Virus record (IMG/VR): IMGVR_UViG_3300021077_000040
Span: 1-24,381 of that record
DNA: 24,381 nt
Source: a virus
Strand: one strand, 5' to 3'
Made by a program: the position numbers and the translations under genes. The notes below the pieces were generated by a model. The model was not told where the DNA came from. It did no database searches and saw nothing but the letters and a program-made list of their open reading frames with translations. Below are positions 2,618 through 22,580 of the stretch, piece after piece; within the stretch, counting starts at the first letter, position 1, and each line of letters opens with the position of its first letter.

Positions 2618-3259
2618 ATGATTAAATTTTTGTCAATTTTTCTCTTCATAGTTACATTAAATTGCTTTTCTTCCTCATGTGAGGTTGATTCAAACCGTCC
2701 GATACTATTTTATAAAACTATAAGCACTATAGGTGACAGCATTACATGGCAAGGAGACGCTCAATATTTACGCTGTTTAATGCGTGATAATGGCCTACAA
2801 TATGAGTTCGTTGGAACTCATACCGATCCTTTCTATTTTCAACATGAGGGAGAAGGGGGAAACACTACCCTCCAAGTCCTCGAACGAATCAATCAAATTC
2901 CTGTGACCGATGCCTATTTCTTATTAATTGGAATTAACGACATATTACAAAATGTTCCTGAATCAGTCATTGTTTCCAACATTATTACTATTTCAAATTC
3001 ATTATATCAGAAAAATAATAATGCAAAAATTTACATAAGTACTCTATTACCTGTAAATTACCCACAAAACATTAAAGTTCAAAAAGTTAACTTAATGTTA
3101 CTTTCTAAATCAAAAATATGCCCTACTTGTACAATTATAGATATTGGCAGTCAAATGTATCATCAATCAAATTGGCCATCTTATTTCATTGAAGGAATTC
3201 ATCCAAATAAAAATGGCTATGAATTCCTTTCAAAAACCATTGTTCCTTATATTAAATAA
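2618..3259 (+). CDS. Secreted SGNH/GDSL-family hydrolase
   Basis: A 213-residue protein with an N-terminal signal peptide (Lys3, then a hydrophobic run from Phe4 to about Leu14). The SGNH blocks are visible: block I TIGDSIT with Ser41; block III LLIGIND (Gly and Asn of the oxyanion hole); block V EGIHPN with His195. The usual Asp of DxxH is Glu192 here. The family comprises esterases, lipases and carbohydrate deacetylases. A Cys at 21 follows Ser-Ser-Ser, a poor lipobox, so a soluble exported or periplasmic enzyme is more likely. The gene lies on the opposite strand to all late genes around it, overlaps the fibre gene 3' end by 13 bp, and has about 32 % G+C (193 of 600 over 2641-3240). It is probably a moron, acting on host envelope or surface polysaccharide. 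The ribosome site (CGGAAC) is weak. Confidence 0.85.
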   Translation: MIKFLSIFLFIVTLNCFSSSCEVDSNRPILFYKTISTIGDSITWQGDAQYLRCLMRDNGLQYEFVGTHTDPFYFQHEGEGGNTTLQVLERINQIPVTDAYFLLIGINDILQNVPESVIVSNIITISNSLYQKNNNAKIYISTLLPVNYPQNIKVQKVNLMLLSKSKICPTCTIIDIGSQMYHQSNWPSYFIEGIHPNKNGYEFLSKTIVPYIK

Positions 3260-14249: not shown

Positions 14250-15497
14250 TTAAGACATTATTCGAACAGCAAACTCAGGGTTAATAGCCACGCCGCATAT
14301 AACGTCAATACGGTCTAATTGCTCGTAGTTACGAATATCCGCACCTAATGAGTAAGTCATAGCTAATTTATATAAGTCTGAGTATCGAGTAACAGCCTCA
14401 ACCCCACCGCGCAATTCCTTGATAGGAGGTGCGGCAAATACTACGGCTTGAGTGTGGTATGCCAAAGACACATTATGTGATGCGTATAACAATATTTGAG
14501 CGCCGTTAGGAATGGCCGCAGAAATATTTTGACGCGCACCGTCAATGATAATGCCAGGGTTAATTGGAATGTTGGCAGTGCTGCCGTCTGTTGTTACGAC
14601 TTGCGCTGTAACTACAAACTGTGCAGGCGCCTCATACAATGAATCGTAAGTAAGCGGATTAACAAAATACACACCTGATGCAGGCGCTATTTGAATTACG
14701 TCCCCTACGTTAAACACTACAGTTCCGGGCGCTTGACCTAATCCTGTAACAGAAATCGTGTTACCGGAAACAATCGGGCCGTTAGTAACCGTACCTCCTA
14801 ACAACATCCCTGCAGGAGGTGTACCACCCGCCTGTCCCGCACCTGCAATTTGACGCTTCAAAAAGTTTGTTTTGAAGAAATCAAAACCTGACAAGTGACC
14901 TACGAACCCGTCAATCAACGCACCAGTGTTTACGGTGTTATTGAAAGTGGTGTACAAATCATTCGACAAGTTAGCAGCAATTCGTGGGCCAATACCGGAG
15001 TAACGCTTACCGTCCTCTGGAATCGCAAACTCGGTCATAAGCGCATCGGCACTTAATATAGTATTAAAATCAACCGGAACGCCTGGAGTTCCTACAGATT
15101 GATAAGTTTGTGTCTGGAATTGTTGGGCAATGAAATTCTCGACTAAGTTAGCTAATCGTTTAGCTCTTGGTGCGTTTGCCATTTCTAAATAAGGCTCATC
15201 GCGTGCTCTATCGAATGTCAGGTTGAACCCTGTGTATTCGATCATGGTGCGGAATTGCTTAGAAATAGTTAGCGGTCTGATAATCTGTACGCGCACCTCT
15301 GCAGTAGCCGATGCACCCTCGCCCGCTAGATATCTTTCCTCTAAACGGTAGTCTAAAGTTTGACCTGTTGCAAAGCGTAGGTTTTTGAAGTCACCTTCAA
15401 GGTTTCTGTTAGCGGTACGTGCGAAAGATAGGCTGTTCCAAAATCGGACGAAGACGTCATCAAGGACGTACTGCGTCTCGCGAAAGACGTTAGGCAT
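14250..15497 (-). CDS. Major coat (capsid) protein, P22 gp5 family
   Basis: A 415-residue protein, close to P22 gp5 (430). The N-terminus PNVFRETQYVLDDVFVRFWN and the following QTLDYRLEERYLAGEGASATA and RPLTISKQFRTMIEYTGFNLTFD read like the HK97-fold coat of P22-like phages. The central part (GNTISVTGLGQAPGTVVFNVGDVIQI; QFVVTAQVVTTDGSTANIPI) corresponds to the inserted beta domain of this family. The C-terminus (GVEAVTRYSDLYKLAMTYSL ... RIDVICGVAINPEFAVRI) is also characteristic. I take ATG 15497, six bases after AGGGAG; an upstream ATG adds six residues but has no better site. A dedicated promoter lies 140 bp upstream and a hairpin follows the gene, as expected for the most abundant virion protein. 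Confidence 0.9.
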   Translation of the reverse strand: MPNVFRETQYVLDDVFVRFWNSLSFARTANRNLEGDFKNLRFATGQTLDYRLEERYLAGEGASATAEVRVQIIRPLTISKQFRTMIEYTGFNLTFDRARDEPYLEMANAPRAKRLANLVENFIAQQFQTQTYQSVGTPGVPVDFNTILSADALMTEFAIPEDGKRYSGIGPRIAANLSNDLYTTFNNTVNTGALIDGFVGHLSGFDFFKTNFLKRQIAGAGQAGGTPPAGMLLGGTVTNGPIVSGNTISVTGLGQAPGTVVFNVGDVIQIAPASGVYFVNPLTYDSLYEAPAQFVVTAQVVTTDGSTANIPINPGIIIDGARQNISAAIPNGAQILLYASHNVSLAYHTQAVVFAAPPIKELRGGVEAVTRYSDLYKLAMTYSLGADIRNYEQLDRIDVICGVAINPEFAVRIMS

Positions 15498-15638: not shown

Positions 15639-15668
15639 ATAGTAGACCCCATACCACACTTTTGTCAA
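15639..15668 (-). promoter_or_regulatory. Sigma-70-type promoter for the coat gene
   Basis: Reading on the minus strand, a consensus TTGACA (15668-15663) is followed after 18 bp by TACTAT (15644-15639). The start point would be near 15632, giving a leader of about 135 bases before the coat ATG. It lies in a 220-bp gap without genes, which would otherwise be unusual in this tightly packed cluster. A double-palindrome hairpin ends eight bp upstream of the -35 box. Confidence 0.65.
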
Positions 15669-15675
15669 ATTGTGC

Positions 15676-15706
15676 CCGAATTCGGTTTTCGATAAACCGA
15701 ATTCGG
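15676..15706. promoter_or_regulatory. 13-bp hairpin built of two CCGAATTCGG palindromes
   Basis: CCGAATTCGGTTT (15676-15688) and AAACCGAATTCGG (15694-15706) are perfect inverted repeats with a 5-base loop. Each arm contains the 10-bp palindrome CCGAATTCGG, so the site is also a direct repeat with a 21-bp period, two helical turns. It lies between the stop of the Acb2-like gene and the coat promoter. No T-run follows on either strand in the right form, so an operator or RNA-stabilising hairpin is more likely than a classic terminator. Confidence 0.6.
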
Positions 15707-15717
15707 TTTGGTTTCCC

Positions 15718-15966
15718 CTACTCGGTTATGCCTAACGCTTCTTTTTCAACTTTATATTTTTTATGACGAGATATTGCCGCACCAAAATGCATTAAGGCTA
15801 AATGCAACGCTCTAAATGCCAGCGTCTTATCTGGGCCATCAGGCGCTGCAGCATCCATACATTCAGCAATCAATTTCACATCTTTATAAGCTGTTTGATG
15901 AAGTTTGCGATCACTCTCATCAAAAACCACTCGATTAAAAATTTCATTCACTTGTTCTAAACTCAT
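15718..15966 (-). CDS. Acb2-like small protein (candidate cyclic-nucleotide sponge)
   Basis: An 82-residue all-helical protein. The C-terminal hairpin, residues 30-68, reads VKLIAECMDAAAPDGPDKTLAFRAL then LALMHFGAAISRH. From memory this matches the pattern of Acb2/Vs.4-type proteins: helix, P-D-[SG]-x-[DE]-[KR]-[ST]-L-A, then L-x-x-A-x-M-[WH]-x-x-A-x-I-[AS]-R. Acb2 proteins (about 90 residues, hexameric) bind cyclic di- and trinucleotides and block CBASS and related host signalling defences. Many tailed phages carry members near virion genes, some with unknown targets. I choose ATG 15966, in a TGATG overlap with the scaffold stop, after AGAGGA; a GTG lies one codon upstream. The N-terminal helix (1-28) diverges from the ones I remember. 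A structural role next to scaffold and coat is the alternative. Confidence 0.6.
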   Translation of the reverse strand: MSLEQVNEIFNRVVFDESDRKLHQTAYKDVKLIAECMDAAAPDGPDKTLAFRALHLALMHFGAAISRHKKYKVEKEALGITE

Positions 15967-16925
15967 CACCTATTTCCTCTTAAGCGTGTTTTAACCGTAG
16001 CCAAACGTTTAGCGTCCGCACGGGCCAATAAATCATCACCGTTAGCCTCTGTTTTCTTTTTAGGCGTTGCAGTATGTGCGTCCGCAGGGGTACGACCTAG
16101 GGGGCGTGGTGCTTTTGTAGTTGGCTTATTTTTGCGCATACGCTCCTCGAGCCTGCCCATTTCGGTCATTTTGGCGTAGGGGTCACGCAATTTAGAAATG
16201 CGCTCAAGCTCTTGGGGGTGGCGTTTCGCTGCGGCATATAAAAATGCTGCGGGGTTTTCCATGGCGCGCGTGGCTAGCGTCATCGGATCGTCAATCTTAA
16301 ACGGCAATGAGTTAATAACATCTCTAAAGTCACCAAACTTTTGCATGCCTGATGATAGTTTTTCCTCAAACTCCGCGTGTATTTCCTGCTCGCGCATTTG
16401 CTGGGCTTGCTGCTCGCGCTTGCTAGTCATATTACTAACGGTTTGCTCGATGAAACTTTCAAGCTGTTGCGGTAAGCTTTGCTCAGAGTCTGGATTAAAT
16501 TCAAATCCTGCTGTTTTATTTTGAAGCTGTTGCTGTGTAATTGCGGGCTTAATATCAGGGTTGTTACGCTCAAACCTCTCAAAGCGTTCACGAATAGCCT
16601 TACTTACAAGCTCTTTATGCTCGGCCTCGGTATACATACGCGGCTTAGATTTTTCATTACCATACTCGTCAAATTCTTTAGGCTCTTGTTTGCGTGGTTT
16701 TTCCTCTTGATCGTCATCACCGTAGGGATCGTCATCATTCTCGTCAGATTGATTGTCATCTGACAAGTCTTGTGACGAGTCATTATTATCGTCATACTCG
16801 GGCGCGTCCTGCTCTAGCTCTTGTATGGGTTCGGGTTCATCCTGATATTGGTTTTCAGGTGCGTCGGGCTGTAGCGAGTTACCGCCACCGCCCATTAATA
16901 GATCGTCAATACTGCTTATAGCCAT
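15966..16925 (-). CDS. Scaffolding protein, P22 gp8 position
   Basis: A 319-residue protein (P22 gp8: 303). The first 110 residues are disordered and very acidic (DDNNDSSQDLSDDNQSDEND, then DDDPYGDDDQEEK). The middle is helical and Gln/Glu-rich (PQQLESFIEQTVSNMTSKRE, EQEIHAEFEEKLSSGMQKFG), suited to oligomerise. The C-terminus is basic (KNKPTTKAPRPLGRTP... RADAKRLATVKTRLRGNR), as in the coat-binding helix-turn-helix end of P22 scaffold. It lies between portal and coat, exactly the P22 place. The ATG follows AGAGGG. The long acidic N-terminus may serve portal recruitment or release; that part is inference. Confidence 0.85.
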   Translation of the reverse strand: MAISSIDDLLMGGGGNSLQPDAPENQYQDEPEPIQELEQDAPEYDDNNDSSQDLSDDNQSDENDDDPYGDDDQEEKPRKQEPKEFDEYGNEKSKPRMYTEAEHKELVSKAIRERFERFERNNPDIKPAITQQQLQNKTAGFEFNPDSEQSLPQQLESFIEQTVSNMTSKREQQAQQMREQEIHAEFEEKLSSGMQKFGDFRDVINSLPFKIDDPMTLATRAMENPAAFLYAAAKRHPQELERISKLRDPYAKMTEMGRLEERMRKNKPTTKAPRPLGRTPADAHTATPKKKTEANGDDLLARADAKRLATVKTRLRGNR

Positions 16926-16946: not shown

Positions 16947-19337
16947 TTAAACAACCTTGTGTGTCAAAATCTTAACCATGTTGTTGGCGTGAGATATCGC
17001 CGTGTCGCTCTCAGTCCTTTGTGTTTCTGACATGTACCGCATTTTTGCCTCCTCAACATTACCCGCTAGCTCCATTTGGGCAATCTCAAGTTTCATCTGT
17101 TCAATTTCAATTTCAGCCTGAGTTTCCCGCTCTTTAAGCGCTAGCTCTTGCTTTTTAATCATGATTTCTTGCTGCTTAAATTGTGCCTCTATTTGCATTT
17201 GCTGCTGTTGCATTTGCATTTGTTGCTGCGCCATTTGCTCCTCAGGCGATGGAGGCTGGTCTTTAGGCATCTCACCAGTTTTACCCGCCTCGATAATGGC
17301 CGGGGGTACACGCGTCTTAAGTCTATTTTTAATTTCAATAGTATTAGCAAGAGGCAAGTTATCAGCGTAGAGGTCGGCAATAAGATTAAATGCGGTTGGG
17401 TCGGCTTGTAATACTTCTCGCAATGACTCCAGTGCTTGTTCTTTTTGCCCCTCAAATGATGGCCCTGGCTTAAGCCTAACCTGATACGTTCCTTTACGGA
17501 TATCGTTCTCAATTTGCTCTCCATACTCATCATTTTGCTTGTTAATGGTGATATTTTTCATACCCTCATCAGGCATCATAAGCGTCATAACACGCTCGGT
17601 ATCATAAACACGCGGTATCATCTCGTTTACAATTTCCCCGCCGACCGCTATGGCACGATTGATAGCATTAAAGAACACATACGTTGTATATGACCCTTGA
17701 CGCGTTCGCGCATCGATTGCCTTACCGCTTGCCTCATCCCCATTGTTACCCATGCGAGCAGGATATAAGCCCGTACACGTGTATAAATCCTCAATAGCCA
17801 GCTGGTACTGTTGAAACAAGGACATTGAAAGCTCAGGCGGTCTGATTTGCTCGGGCTTATTTCCGTTTGGTGATTCGTCATAAGTAAGCATCCCCTGTAT
17901 TGCGGTTGGATCGCGCCAGTTACGTTGAGTATCCATACTGGCCACGTTTTTCTTTGAACCAATCCACTGATCGTAACGACTTACCTTCAAAATATAAGCA
18001 GACTGGGTGCGTAAATAGTTAATGTAACGCTGCGTATCACGGCAATCACCAAAGAATGAGCGACACACTTGCTTACCCGTCTTATCGTAATAACTATTGT
18101 TATCGACAAACACTAACGGCAATTGCTCAGATGGGAATTCTGATTTATCAAGAATGTAATTACCCGCTATCCGATAATGTACAATTTTATGTTTCTTACT
18201 AGGACGCTTGTCCTCTATACGCACCATGTCATCGCCATCCCAAAGCGTCATGGTTTCAAACGTATCCTCCTCAACCTCAACCGCCAAGTTTTGCGCTTTG
18301 TTATAACGGTCAACGTCCATCCCGTTTTCTTGCGGTAAAATATCGTGCTCACCAGTGATACCAAAACCATCCGGCGAAGGAGGTTGTTTATCGTCAACAA
18401 TCCTTGATTGCATTAGTGGTTGTTCTGGCATTTCTTGCCCAGGCATTCCCGCGGGATTCCCGCCGGGAAATTGGGGCTGCCCACCCATCAATTGTTGCTC
18501 GAACTCCATTTGTTGATTACGCGCATTAACATCTCGAGAGTGCTCAATAAGATCGTCCATTTCTTCTTGGTTTAAAACAGAACCATTTGATAGCTTATAG
18601 AGCATATCCTTTTCGTATTTACGCACGAAATGATCAATGATGGTGATTGACTCGTCATCAGACCAGGTGAACGGATCGTCTGCCTCGTCAGGTTGTACGG
18701 CTAGGGCTATTTCTTCTTGCGTTTGGGTAATGCTGGTGGTTTTAAGAATGTTTTGTTCGACGTCTTTCCCATAGGTATCTTTGAATTTAGCGCGTGTCAT
18801 ACGGGTAATGTAGCCGCATACTGTACCGTCTGTTTTATTGGGGGTTTCAGCGCCTATATCCCAATAACAACGGGTGGCGTCTTTGTTGTAACGATAAACA
18901 ATATCAAGATCGAACGATTTGCTATGGGTATATTCTGTATCTAACCAAAAGGCCCCGTGGCCGCCTATTGCGGCTTGTTTGGCGGCAATTTGTACGGCAG
19001 TATTCGCCCCGCTTGAAAACATAATATCTTTTGTAATGATTTCGCGTAAGTGGGCGACCTTTTGATCGCACTCCGTCATGGGGACTACTTGCAATTGGGG
19101 GGTATTTTGGAGCTGCTCGCCTAGCAGGCTATTGGACATGGTGCCAAGTTTATTGGCGGTAAGAGGCACCTTTCGGTACGTCTTAATCATGTCGTCCTCT
19201 TCCTCATCAGTCCATTGCTCTCCTAGAACAAACGTATGCATTAAATGGTAGAGGTCTATATTGTATTTGAAGTATTCGCGCCATTTTTCGCACGCAATAC
19301 GGGCTTCACGAGCTATTTTCTCATTCTTTATGGCCAT
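16947..19337 (-). CDS. Portal protein, P22 type
   Basis: A 796-residue protein (P22 gp1: 725). It begins with helices (ACEKWREYFKYNIDLYHLMH, then LGEQWTDEEEDDM) and the segment RKVPLTANKLGTMSNSLLGEQ, typical of P22-type portals. A flexible Gln/Pro/Gly-rich insert lies near residues 275-335. The core continues with SFFGDCRDTQRYINYLRTQSA and CTGLYPARMGNNGDEASGKA, the conserved part of these portals. Residues about 699-759 form a Gln/Met/Glu-rich coiled coil, corresponding to the long C-terminal helical barrel of the P22 portal, which helps to sense full packaging. The protein forms the dodecameric DNA gate at one capsid vertex and docks terminase. The ATG has AAGGGA upstream; terL lies 43 bp upstream. 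Confidence 0.9.
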   Translation of the reverse strand: MAIKNEKIAREARIACEKWREYFKYNIDLYHLMHTFVLGEQWTDEEEDDMIKTYRKVPLTANKLGTMSNSLLGEQLQNTPQLQVVPMTECDQKVAHLREIITKDIMFSSGANTAVQIAAKQAAIGGHGAFWLDTEYTHSKSFDLDIVYRYNKDATRCYWDIGAETPNKTDGTVCGYITRMTRAKFKDTYGKDVEQNILKTTSITQTQEEIALAVQPDEADDPFTWSDDESITIIDHFVRKYEKDMLYKLSNGSVLNQEEMDDLIEHSRDVNARNQQMEFEQQLMGGQPQFPGGNPAGMPGQEMPEQPLMQSRIVDDKQPPSPDGFGITGEHDILPQENGMDVDRYNKAQNLAVEVEEDTFETMTLWDGDDMVRIEDKRPSKKHKIVHYRIAGNYILDKSEFPSEQLPLVFVDNNSYYDKTGKQVCRSFFGDCRDTQRYINYLRTQSAYILKVSRYDQWIGSKKNVASMDTQRNWRDPTAIQGMLTYDESPNGNKPEQIRPPELSMSLFQQYQLAIEDLYTCTGLYPARMGNNGDEASGKAIDARTRQGSYTTYVFFNAINRAIAVGGEIVNEMIPRVYDTERVMTLMMPDEGMKNITINKQNDEYGEQIENDIRKGTYQVRLKPGPSFEGQKEQALESLREVLQADPTAFNLIADLYADNLPLANTIEIKNRLKTRVPPAIIEAGKTGEMPKDQPPSPEEQMAQQQMQMQQQQMQIEAQFKQQEIMIKKQELALKERETQAEIEIEQMKLEIAQMELAGNVEEAKMRYMSETQRTESDTAISHANNMVKILTHKVV

Positions 19338-19380: not shown

Positions 19381-20904
19381 TTAAATCAGCATACCTGCTG
19401 TACGCTCAGGGAGGACATTGACTTGATACCCTCCCTCGTTTACATACTCTCCACCAAAAAATGTTAATATAAATGCCTCTGCTGTATCGGGAGATAATAA
19501 CCCTCGTTTCTTGGCATCAATCTTGCTTTCAATTTGTAACTTGTCGCTTGAGTCGTACTTATAACCTAGGCCACAAAGGTCTGTTTGTAGCTCGTCACTA
19601 TCGGGGATCTCGACAGGCATATCCTGTATAAGCCACGCACGCCCCCTATCCCAAAGCTCGGCACGCGTATTTTTATAAATCTCAGGGTCTTCTGGCCTAC
19701 AGGCTACGTTCACCCCAATTACTATATCAGTGTAGCCTAACTCGTGAAGCCTATCGACTACCCCGGCTCCTATGCCAATACAGTCAATACAAACACGCTT
19801 AGGCTCTTCTCTATCAATAATACGTTTAATGATGCCTGCTAATTGCATCAAGTCAATATTGTAATGCGTTTCCAAACCGTAAGCGCGACGCCCTCGGCGT
19901 CTGATAATGGCAATGCGGTCATCACCCATGCGAGCAGGATCGACACCTATCACAAGGTTTGCCTTAGAGTCAACAGTGGTTTTCCTTGCCCGCTGTACGT
20001 GTTCTACCTGAATAAATGTATCAGTAATAGAGGAAAGAAACGCCTCGTCATCAGTAAAGGGGTATTCTTGGCGAAACTTTCTACACTTTTGCTCATAGTC
20101 GCCTTTAATGTCTTCCATCTTAATACGGCGCCAATTAAGGTGACCGGGCTTTAAACCGTTAGGCCCAAACTCCTCAAGCCATTTAATCTCGTCATCTTTT
20201 GGCACAAAACTTGCATCGTCAATACAATACTCGTCTTGCCAATACCACGGCACGAAAATAGCCTGATAGCGTGACTTGCCGTTCTTTGCCGCCTGCCAGT
20301 CCGCATAAAAGTCATTGCTTTGACCGTTTGCGGTTGACTCTTTGATGATTTCCGTGTCCTCAATTTCAGCCACGGTATTCATTAACCCCATACCAATCTT
20401 TGCGGCGTCTTTATAGAACGCATACTCGGAAAGGTGCAAATATTGGTTGGTCATCCCACGACCTACCTCAACAGAACCCGCCGTACCAACCCGGTAACCT
20501 GACGCAAGCTTCTCATACATAAGTGTGTTGTCGTTCTTTTTATCGGGCTGGGGGAACAATATCGGATCGACGTTTTCGCTATAGCGCTTAGTCATTTCAA
20601 ACAGAGCGCGTGTTGAGTCGGCGTGATGGGTTAGAATGAACGCTTTCTTGCCGCGCTTGGTCACAATCTTATGAAAGAAACGGGCTTGCACATAGGTAGA
20701 AACACCCTGTTGACGGCCCTTTAATACCAACGCACGGATTTTACCTGTAGCGGCAAGCTGTGCCTCTAGGCGCTCGTGAATGTATTGCTGGGCGCGATTA
20801 AGCTCAAACTTACGCTCGGCACCTGATTTGTCATGGATGATAAGAAAGTTTTTAGCAAACGACGGTAATGACTTTAAAATACGAATTAACTTTTCTTCAT
20901 TCAT
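19381..20904 (-). CDS. terL: Terminase large subunit (packaging ATPase and nuclease)
   Basis: A 507-residue protein (P22 gp2: 499). The ATPase P-loop is GRQQGVST at 63-70, with Val in place of the usual Lys position of this motif, as in several P22-type terminases where the preceding Arg takes part. Walker B ends in the acidic pair at HLSE (157-160). Motif III is KESTANG (188-194). The nuclease part has Asp322 in GVDPARMGDD, Asp374 in CIDCIGIGAGVVDRL and Asp473 in SPDTAEAF, the three metal-binding acids of the RNase H-like fold. It pumps DNA into the prohead and cuts the concatemer. It lies between terS and the portal gene, as in P22. The ribosome site AAGGA is somewhat far (11 bases). Confidence 0.95.
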   Translation of the reverse strand: MNEEKLIRILKSLPSFAKNFLIIHDKSGAERKFELNRAQQYIHERLEAQLAATGKIRALVLKGRQQGVSTYVQARFFHKIVTKRGKKAFILTHHADSTRALFEMTKRYSENVDPILFPQPDKKNDNTLMYEKLASGYRVGTAGSVEVGRGMTNQYLHLSEYAFYKDAAKIGMGLMNTVAEIEDTEIIKESTANGQSNDFYADWQAAKNGKSRYQAIFVPWYWQDEYCIDDASFVPKDDEIKWLEEFGPNGLKPGHLNWRRIKMEDIKGDYEQKCRKFRQEYPFTDDEAFLSSITDTFIQVEHVQRARKTTVDSKANLVIGVDPARMGDDRIAIIRRRGRRAYGLETHYNIDLMQLAGIIKRIIDREEPKRVCIDCIGIGAGVVDRLHELGYTDIVIGVNVACRPEDPEIYKNTRAELWDRGRAWLIQDMPVEIPDSDELQTDLCGLGYKYDSSDKLQIESKIDAKKRGLLSPDTAEAFILTFFGGEYVNEGGYQVNVLPERTAGMLI

Positions 20905-21025: not shown

Positions 21026-21373
21026 TTAATCTATTAACTTATCGATAATAGCCTCGACAATCTTGTCGCTTACGCTAGGCGTATCATCTTTTTCACGCCA
21101 TCTAGCGCGAGTTTTTAACCAAAATATTTGCGCCTTAATGTCGTCGCCGTCTATGGCTTTACGAAACAATTTAGCCGCCACCTTAGCGTTCGCACGTACC
21201 ACGCTGTTATCCAGCTCATCGCGGTAATGACGCTCTAAGGTGTCAATTGATATACCTATGTAGCCTGCGATCTCTTCTTGCGTATTGCCAAAGCTTACAA
21301 GAGCCGCAACCTCAGCCCTTGTTTTTTCGGTAGGCTCGTGAGGTTTGGTCTTCCCTGATTTCGGTGTGGCCAT
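21026..21373 (-). CDS. terS: Terminase small subunit
   Basis: A 115-residue protein. Residues 16-50 form a helix-turn-helix (TEKTRAEVAALVSFGNTQEE IAGYIGISIDTLERHYRDEL) with the pattern seen in many small terminases. Residues 55-95 (VRANAKVAAKLFRKAIDGDD, then AQIFWLKTRARWREK) form the oligomerisation helix; the WLKTRARWRE motif is very typical of this family. The protein would form a ring that recognises the packaging site and regulates TerL. It overlaps the methyltransferase gene upstream by 62 bp in another frame; GAGAGG six bases before the ATG supports the start. TerL follows after 121 bp. Confidence 0.85.
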   Translation of the reverse strand: MATPKSGKTKPHEPTEKTRAEVAALVSFGNTQEEIAGYIGISIDTLERHYRDELDNSVVRANAKVAAKLFRKAIDGDDIKAQIFWLKTRARWREKDDTPSVSDKIVEAIIDKLID

Positions 21374-22580
21374 CCTTAGCCTCTCTTACGGCTTTTTGGC
21401 CGCTGTAATTCTCATAGCGTTGTATAATAATATCGCAGTATTTTGGATCTAACTCCATCATAAGCGCACGACGCTTCGTCTTCTCACACGCTACCATAAG
21501 CGTACCACTACCCGCAAACGGATCGTAAACATACTCACCCGGGTTAGTATGATGTACTATAGAGCGTACAAATAACTCCACAGGCTTTTGCGTAGGGTGT
21601 GCCGTCTTATCATCCTTTGTGCCTGAGTTTGCCGCATTAGGTGCCTCGCAATCCCAAACCGTAGTTTGTTTGCGATCACCCTTCCAATTAGACTTAGCCC
21701 CCTTTTTAACCGCATACCAACAAGGCTCGTGCTGCCAGTGGTAATTAGCACGGCCTAAAACAAAATGGCTCTTACGCCATATGATTTGTTGTTTTGTTTC
21801 AAAGCCCGCATCACGCAAATTGGCCATGACAATATCAGTATAGGCGCTGGCGTGCCAAACGTAGGCAATAGAGCCGGGAAATAGCGAGTAAGTATCAAGC
21901 CAGTCGGCCCGATCGTCATTCATGACCACGTTTTCATTATTCTTGCCACCCCGCGCCTCATTGCGCCATGACATATCAAGCTTTACGCCATAAGGTGGGT
22001 CGGTAACCATAGTATTTGGGTGCTGGCCGTCTAATAAACGGTCGACGTCGCTTGAAACAGTAGAGTCCCCACATACCAACCGATGGTCGCCGAGCAACCA
22101 CACATCACCAAGAACAGCAATAGGCGCCACCGCCACCGGAACATCATCCTCACCACAAAATACCTCCGGCAGTTCATCAGGAAATATTTCGCATAATTCT
22201 TCAAGGTCAAACCCCGTTAATGTAAGGTCATAGTCAAATGATTTTAAATATTCAAATTGATTAAGCAAAATATCTTTATCCCACCCCGCATCAAGCGCAA
22301 TCTTATTGTCAGCAATAACAAGCGCTGCTTTTTGTTCGGGGGATAATCCGGGCAATACAATACAAGGCACATCAGGCATATTCATCAATAGGGCAGCAGC
22401 TAGGCGCCCATGCCCCGCAATGATGGTATTGTTTTCGTCAATAAGAAGGGGATTTGTAAAACCAAACTCGTTTATAGAGCGAACAATCTTTTCAATTTGC
22501 TCTACAGAATGTGTACGAGAATTGGCCTCATACATGGCCAATTCCCCTACAGAAACGCTTTTATAGTCCCGCAAAGCCAT
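21312..22580 (-). CDS. ParB-domain / DNA methyltransferase fusion
   Basis: A 422-residue protein of two parts. Residues 1-150 form a ParB/Srx-type N-terminal domain (VGELAMYEANSRTHSVEQIE; AGHGR at 55-59 replaces the GERR of ParB; then MPDVPCIVLPGLSPEQKAAL VIADNK). Residues 155-395 form a DNA methyltransferase with DPPY at 194-197 (catalytic), HPTQKP at 328-333 and DPFAGSGT at 353-360 (AdoMet binding). DPPY before FxGxGT is the beta-class order; the enzyme should methylate adenine N6 or cytosine N4. Such fusions are widespread in phages and prophages and probably protect phage DNA from restriction or mark it. No cognate restriction enzyme gene is visible. It is coupled to the small gene upstream (TAATG) and overlaps terS. 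Confidence 0.9.
   Translation of the reverse strand: MALRDYKSVSVGELAMYEANSRTHSVEQIEKIVRSINEFGFTNPLLIDENNTIIAGHGRLAAALLMNMPDVPCIVLPGLSPEQKAALVIADNKIALDAGWDKDILLNQFEYLKSFDYDLTLTGFDLEELCEIFPDELPEVFCGEDDVPVAVAPIAVLGDVWLLGDHRLVCGDSTVSSDVDRLLDGQHPNTMVTDPPYGVKLDMSWRNEARGGKNNENVVMNDDRADWLDTYSLFPGSIAYVWHASAYTDIVMANLRDAGFETKQQIIWRKSHFVLGRANYHWQHEPCWYAVKKGAKSNWKGDRKQTTVWDCEAPNAANSGTKDDKTAHPTQKPVELFVRSIVHHTNPGEYVYDPFAGSGTLMVACEKTKRRALMMELDPKYCDIIIQRYENYSGQKAVREAKDGHTEIREDQTSRAYRKNKG

Follow-up and report, generated by a model that had tools for sequence, protein, structure and literature searches.

The window, i.e. the whole 24,381-nucleotide stretch of viral DNA that was analysed, encodes between its head scaffolding and major coat protein genes an 82-residue protein that is very probably a divergent member of the Acb2/Tad1 hairpin superfamily, within the actinophage-type PHROG 1454 branch, and its gene belongs to the exchangeable accessory (moron) cargo of a slot in the head operon. 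The likeliest reading of the protein's function, with about an even chance of being right, is that of a sponge for nucleotide signals. The explanation as a whole, combining the swappable accessory gene, the divergent Acb2/Tad1 hairpin protein and a likely sponge role, is held tentatively, at a shade under even.

The first-pass annotation had placed an 82-residue open reading frame here between scaffold and coat genes, and both the place and the neighbours were confirmed, with the gene lying on the minus strand and starting at an ATG (Table 1). Along that strand the order is terminase, portal, scaffold, Acb2-like gene and coat. The scaffold stop codon overlaps the ATG in a TGATG junction, so the translation of the two genes is likely to be coupled; a GTG at 15969 offers an alternative start that would add one residue, and a promoter scan found no strong site directly upstream of the gene, a promoter of its own being a usual though not strict feature of a moron. 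The family comprised 10 distinct members, all located between scaffold and coat (the window, L002, L004, L005, L007, L088 and L097-L100), with the nine others sharing 41-60% amino acid identity with the window protein at the same genomic place. No relative was found in a search of 84,980 bacterial and archaeal genomes. Eighteen columns were invariant across the 10 members (F10, R12, D16, D19, V30, K31, A34, P42, L49, A50, R52, L54, H55, L58, M59, A64, K70 and Y71), and codon changes among the relatives were biased to third positions, with a dN/dS of about 0.04 for the pair L097/L100 (dN 0.02, dS 0.53) and about 0.1 for L098/L099 (dN 0.03, dS 0.29). The open reading frame is a real gene under purifying selection.

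Table 1. Positions in the window of the Acb2-like gene, its flanking elements and other genes
Feature	Position	Strand	Basis or remark
Acb2/Tad1-hairpin-like gene (82 aa + stop)	15966..15718	-	ATG at 15966, stop 15718-15720
Shine-Dalgarno-like AGAGGA	15975..15980	-	8 nt 5' of the Acb2-like ATG, within the scaffold gene 3' end
Head scaffolding protein gene	15966..16925	-	PHROG 8865, E 9.9e-12; upstream border of the slot
P22-like portal gene	16947..19337	-	same strand and order
Terminase large subunit gene	19381..20904	-	PHROG search
Segment exchanged relative to L028	15709..15962	-	homology stops at 15961 and resumes at 15708
Perfect 13-bp hairpin at cassette end	15676..15706	-	no T-run on the strand of the Acb2-like gene
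Promoter-like TTGACA-18-TACTAT of the coat gene	15639..15668	-	promoter scan
P22-type major coat protein gene	14250..15497	-	PHROG 283, E 6.8e-41; PF11651; downstream border of the slot
N6/N4 DNA methylase gene, ParB-like N-terminal domain	21312..22580	-	adjoins the terminase genes
GDSL/SGNH hydrolase gene, signal-like N-terminus	2618..3259	+	opposes the surrounding minus-strand genes

Family membership was assessed by Pfam, PHROG and profile-profile comparison. The Pfam search suggested by the first-pass annotation returned PF24729 (Acb2_Tad1_hairpin) as the sole match of the window protein, at E 0.002 and a score of 18.7 bits, below the gathering cut-off of 27 bits; eight of the 10 family members matched the model (best 8.7e-5), and none of those scored reached the gathering score. 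PHROG 1454 matched the window protein at E 1.5e-7 and likewise eight of the 10 members, and was the only PHROG at E <=0.01 among them. This PHROG carries no annotated function and contains Gordonia and Arthrobacter proteins matching PF24729 at about 1e-21, such as Gordonia phage Battleship gp52 (PHROG 1454 at E 1.8e-37, PF24729 at 2e-21); proteins of the same actinophage type were also retrieved by tblastn with the window protein. Alignment by hhalign of the family profile to three undisputed actinophage proteins gave a score of 51.9 (E 1.3e-9), whereas none of 100 column shuffles exceeded 15.9 and reversing the profile gave 11.1, and two other small helical families of the same slot gave no alignment to the profile. 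Direct sequence searches of the PDB, with either the protein or the family as query, retrieved no Acb2 chain, and no PADLOC model matched the protein. Accepted Acb2 proteins are themselves highly divergent, with T4 Vs.4 and PaMx33 Acb2 finding each other only at E 0.02-0.03.

The AlphaFold2 monomer model, built from a ten-sequence alignment (pLDDT 80.8), comprised helices at residues 3-10, 17-40 and 45-66; as in the Acb2 protomer, a short helix is predicted to accompany two long ones. The antiparallel hairpin anticipated by the first-pass annotation at residues 30-68 was thus predicted, albeit over a longer extent, and the P-D-G-x-D-K-T-L-A ... L-x-x-A-L-M-x-x-x-A-A-I-S-R spacing on which the resemblance to Acb2 had been based was matched letter for letter within residues 42-67. 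A Foldseek search of the BFVD viral models gave seven best matches at probability 1.00, all of them Acb2/Tad1 hairpin proteins, as were all named matches through rank 22. This result is not generic to any hairpin, since the model of a second family from the same slot, described below, gave no such matches. Against the PDB, Foldseek was weak, with Tad1 (7uaw) second at E 3.9 and Acb2 not listed, and Foldseek together with VIA-align remained at noise level, as expected for small helical hairpins.

Among known proteins, those of PHROG 1454 (Battleship gp52 and Arthrobacter phage Talia1610 gp187) were of similar size (76-82 residues), gave a full-length profile match, and shared with the window protein a P-x-x-x-E/D-K-x-L-A motif between two helices. 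Identity was about 33%, the N-terminal loop of the window protein was four residues shorter, and the actinophage Gly-Arg-Glu-Lys was replaced by Cys-Ala-Glu-Lys or Gly-Pro-Asp-Lys in the window family. The genomic settings also differed, with the actinophage genes adjoining genes for nucleotide metabolism or RNA repair and the window gene adjoining head genes. Acb2 proper, represented by T4 Vs.4 (7uq2) and PaMx33 gp24 (8h2j), shares the PF24729 kinship and a similar predicted protomer layout, but was only 15-17% identical to the window protein and matched PHROG 717, which none of the ten family members did. At the I-K-G-Y-R/K loop of Acb2, which includes T4 Tyr8, the window family appears to carry a four-residue deletion, the alignment being uncertain at such low identity; the Y8A variant of T4 Acb2 is binding-deficient (PMC12657230). 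The Gly-Arg preceding helix 2, common to PaMx33 and the actinophage proteins, was Gly-Pro or Cys-Ala/Asp in the window family. Given these differences in PHROG 717, the tyrosine loop and Gly-Arg, the window protein is termed a divergent relative of Acb2 rather than Acb2, so that the resemblance proposed by the first-pass annotation stands as kinship with the Acb2/Tad1 hairpin family, by sequence profiles and fold, but not as membership of Acb2 proper, from which the missed Pfam cut-off also sets it apart. The actinophage proteins likewise lack the Acb2 tyrosine, and their P-x-G-R-E-K type is also seen in a solved six-chain structure, 'Acb2 homolog 43' (9ptq). Tad1 (7uav, 7uaw and the 8kbe series) shares the C-terminal helical hairpin but also contains an N-terminal beta-sheet portion (PMC12043709) that the window protein lacks.

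To define the genomic context of the gene, the scaffold-coat junction was surveyed in the best 80 of 175 coat matches (coat proteins 81-99% identical), the window and its relatives being mostly metagenomic fragments. The 77 distinct gaps ranged from 158 to 5747 bp with a median of 422, and 24 were <=260 bp, which leaves no room ahead of the coat promoter for a gene this long. A TTGACN, 15-19 nt, TAnnnT element lay about 150-230 nt upstream of coat in 74 of the 77 loci, whatever the gap length, and was followed by a conserved leader; the slot is therefore taken to extend from the scaffold stop to the coat gene's own promoter. Filled gaps carried the Acb2-like family (10), a 62-residue family beginning MSIL (12) or an 80-residue family beginning MALDIRLDFI (4), and other cargo included C5 and N6/N4 DNA methylases, a Phd/Doc pair, endonuclease VII, DnaB N-terminal domains and DUF6378, among others. 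The commonest cargo, the MSIL...DLKHGLDLIFELK..LDKLHPIA family of about 62 residues (L028:4078-4281, L029:1571-1759, L047:4136-4318 and nine more), yielded nothing in PHROG when one member was searched. In L007, a 5.7-kb stretch of the slot whose genes are mostly on the reverse strand (L007:6288-11525) separates the Acb2-like gene from coat.

The nearest coat relative among the matches listed, L028 (98.6% identical), holds an MSIL gene in the slot. Homology with the window (87%) continues up to position 15961 and resumes at 90.6% from 15708, in the 13-bp perfect hairpin, which is common to L028, L029 (imperfect), L004 and L075, loci whose cargo partly differs. An initial reading of this hairpin as a terminator was not kept, as a T-run is absent from the strand of the Acb2-like gene; the hairpin may signal exchange or termination. 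On a 75-tip coat tree with modest branch support, presence of the Acb2-like gene required 7 parsimony changes, compared with a mean of 8.7 for shuffled labels, a pattern close to random. The pattern by which a moron is recognised, presence or absence among syntenic relatives with variable length and content, was thus observed, and with the slot variable and its cargo swapped in L028, the gene is an accessory one and not a part of head assembly. The 'ant moron' of P22 phages similarly comprises variable non-assembly genes within a morphogenetic operon. However, in classical P22-like phages the moron precedes the tailspike gene, with none seen elsewhere in the morphogenetic cluster (PMC2629481), and coat directly follows scaffold in five named P22-like phages, whereas the slot described here lies between scaffold and coat. 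The setting also differs from that of PaMx33 acb2, the last gene of a replication operon that runs convergent to the structural genes. As acb2 closes the replication operon in PaMx41 as well as in PaMx33, the notion that Acb2 genes typically lie among late genes was dropped.

The MALDIRLDFI family, of about 80 residues, represents a second PF24729-like cargo (L043:4049-4285, L051:4035-4280, L075:4025-4264, L082:4037-4288, L180-L183 and L184:5506-5778). Its PF24729 matches were below threshold (L082 1.5e-4, L043 0.0019, and L183 8.4e-6 at 26.3 bits, just under the cut-off), and its R-x-x-A-L-x-R-T motif resembles R67-W-L-A-I-G-K-T of PaMx33 Acb2. It did not align to the window family. Although its model is a predicted two-helix hairpin, the named matches of the fold search included no Acb2/Tad1 proteins, so the family was rejected as an equally clear Acb2 relative and the evidence for its kinship is that of the PF24729 sequence matches. 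Two Acb2-like families alternating in one slot would fit counter-defence, the second assignment being the weaker. The family also occurs outside this type of slot, in the portal-scaffold interval of L182 and in the replication module of another phage in L183, while L184, a phage contig within a gammaproteobacterial assembly, has it in the slot. Separately, PF24729 gave a sub-threshold match to a protein of 136 residues encoded in the terminase-portal gap of another phage (L175:4854-5261).

As a sponge, the Acb2-like protein would oligomerise as Acb2 and Tad1 do and sequester a nucleotide messenger of CBASS or a comparable immune system; its pocket would differ from that of T4 and PaMx33 Acb2, as probably would its range of ligands. 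The invariant charged or polar residues R12, D16, D19, K31, R52, H55, K70 and Y71 are compatible with ligand or subunit contacts. A sponge works by stoichiometry, so that co-translation with the abundant scaffold, if coupling and timing are as supposed, would be a plausible arrangement for one. Nor need a sponge made with the head proteins arrive too late, since CBASS is reported, in work cited in PMC11312562, to be triggered by capsid-related proteins. The slot companions, which include DNA methylases, Phd/Doc and the second PF24729-like family, were counted in favour of counter-defence. A search for an SMODS cyclase in the sole bacterial assembly to contain a related phage contig of known class gave none; that assembly may be incomplete, and the contig may derive from free phage. 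A more extended proposal is rather unlikely, namely that the family forms a pocket-altered class of sponge, co-translated with scaffold shortly ahead of coat protein synthesis and hence alongside the head proteins that can trigger CBASS, and that at least two Acb2-like families interchange at the scaffold-coat junction of these P22-like phages, which would then serve as a slot for counter-defence.

Several other explanations were weighed against this one. A protein of the same superfamily may have lost signal binding or turned to another target, whether nucleotide, protein, DNA or RNA, and serve as an accessory or regulatory factor, which is a genuine possibility though not a probable one. Consistent with such a change of role are the missing T4 Tyr8 loop, the missing Gly-Arg and Thr-Lys-x-Glu-Glu positions of the actinophage branch, and the lack of a known function for PHROG 1454. 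However, many polar residues are strongly constrained, the gene shares its slot with defence-related cargo, and the actinophage members, although also without the tyrosine, are still classed with Acb2, the six-chain homolog 43 being of their type.

The first-pass annotation had suggested that the protein might be packaged as a sponge or that the fold had been reused structurally. A scaffold or coat co-factor of this kind, made or packaged with the head, would accord with a start that overlaps the scaffold stop, with the position before coat, and with the PF24729-like genes at the portal-scaffold (L182) and terminase-portal (L175) junctions. Neither suggestion is supported, given that cargo is what occupies the space between scaffold and coat, which is often empty or filled with unrelated genes: the gene would not fit in nearly a third of the gaps surveyed (24 of 77), an unrelated gene takes its place in L028, the five named phages have coat directly after scaffold, and the second-family relative L183 lies in a replication module; a structural role is accordingly very unlikely. 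Equally improbable is a chance resemblance, in which an unrelated small two-helix protein happened to give a sub-threshold Pfam match. The single-sequence Pfam score, 8 bits under the cut-off, the commonness of two-helix hairpins and the noise-level PDB matches would all permit this, but the PHROG, profile-profile and fold searches agree independently and were set against shuffled, reversed and same-slot controls.

With the divergent Acb2/Tad1 hairpin protein retained as the preferred assignment, the superfamily would be extended to P22-like phages in a form without the known binding tyrosine, the loss of which makes ligand specificity a testable question. The survey also points to a compact exchange slot in the capsid operon of these phages, running from the scaffold stop to the coat promoter, and its small genes, such as the 62-residue MSIL and 80-residue MALDIRLDFI families, are candidates for counter-defence screens. 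If the sponge function is true, the reported triggering of CBASS by capsid-related proteins would explain the place of the gene.
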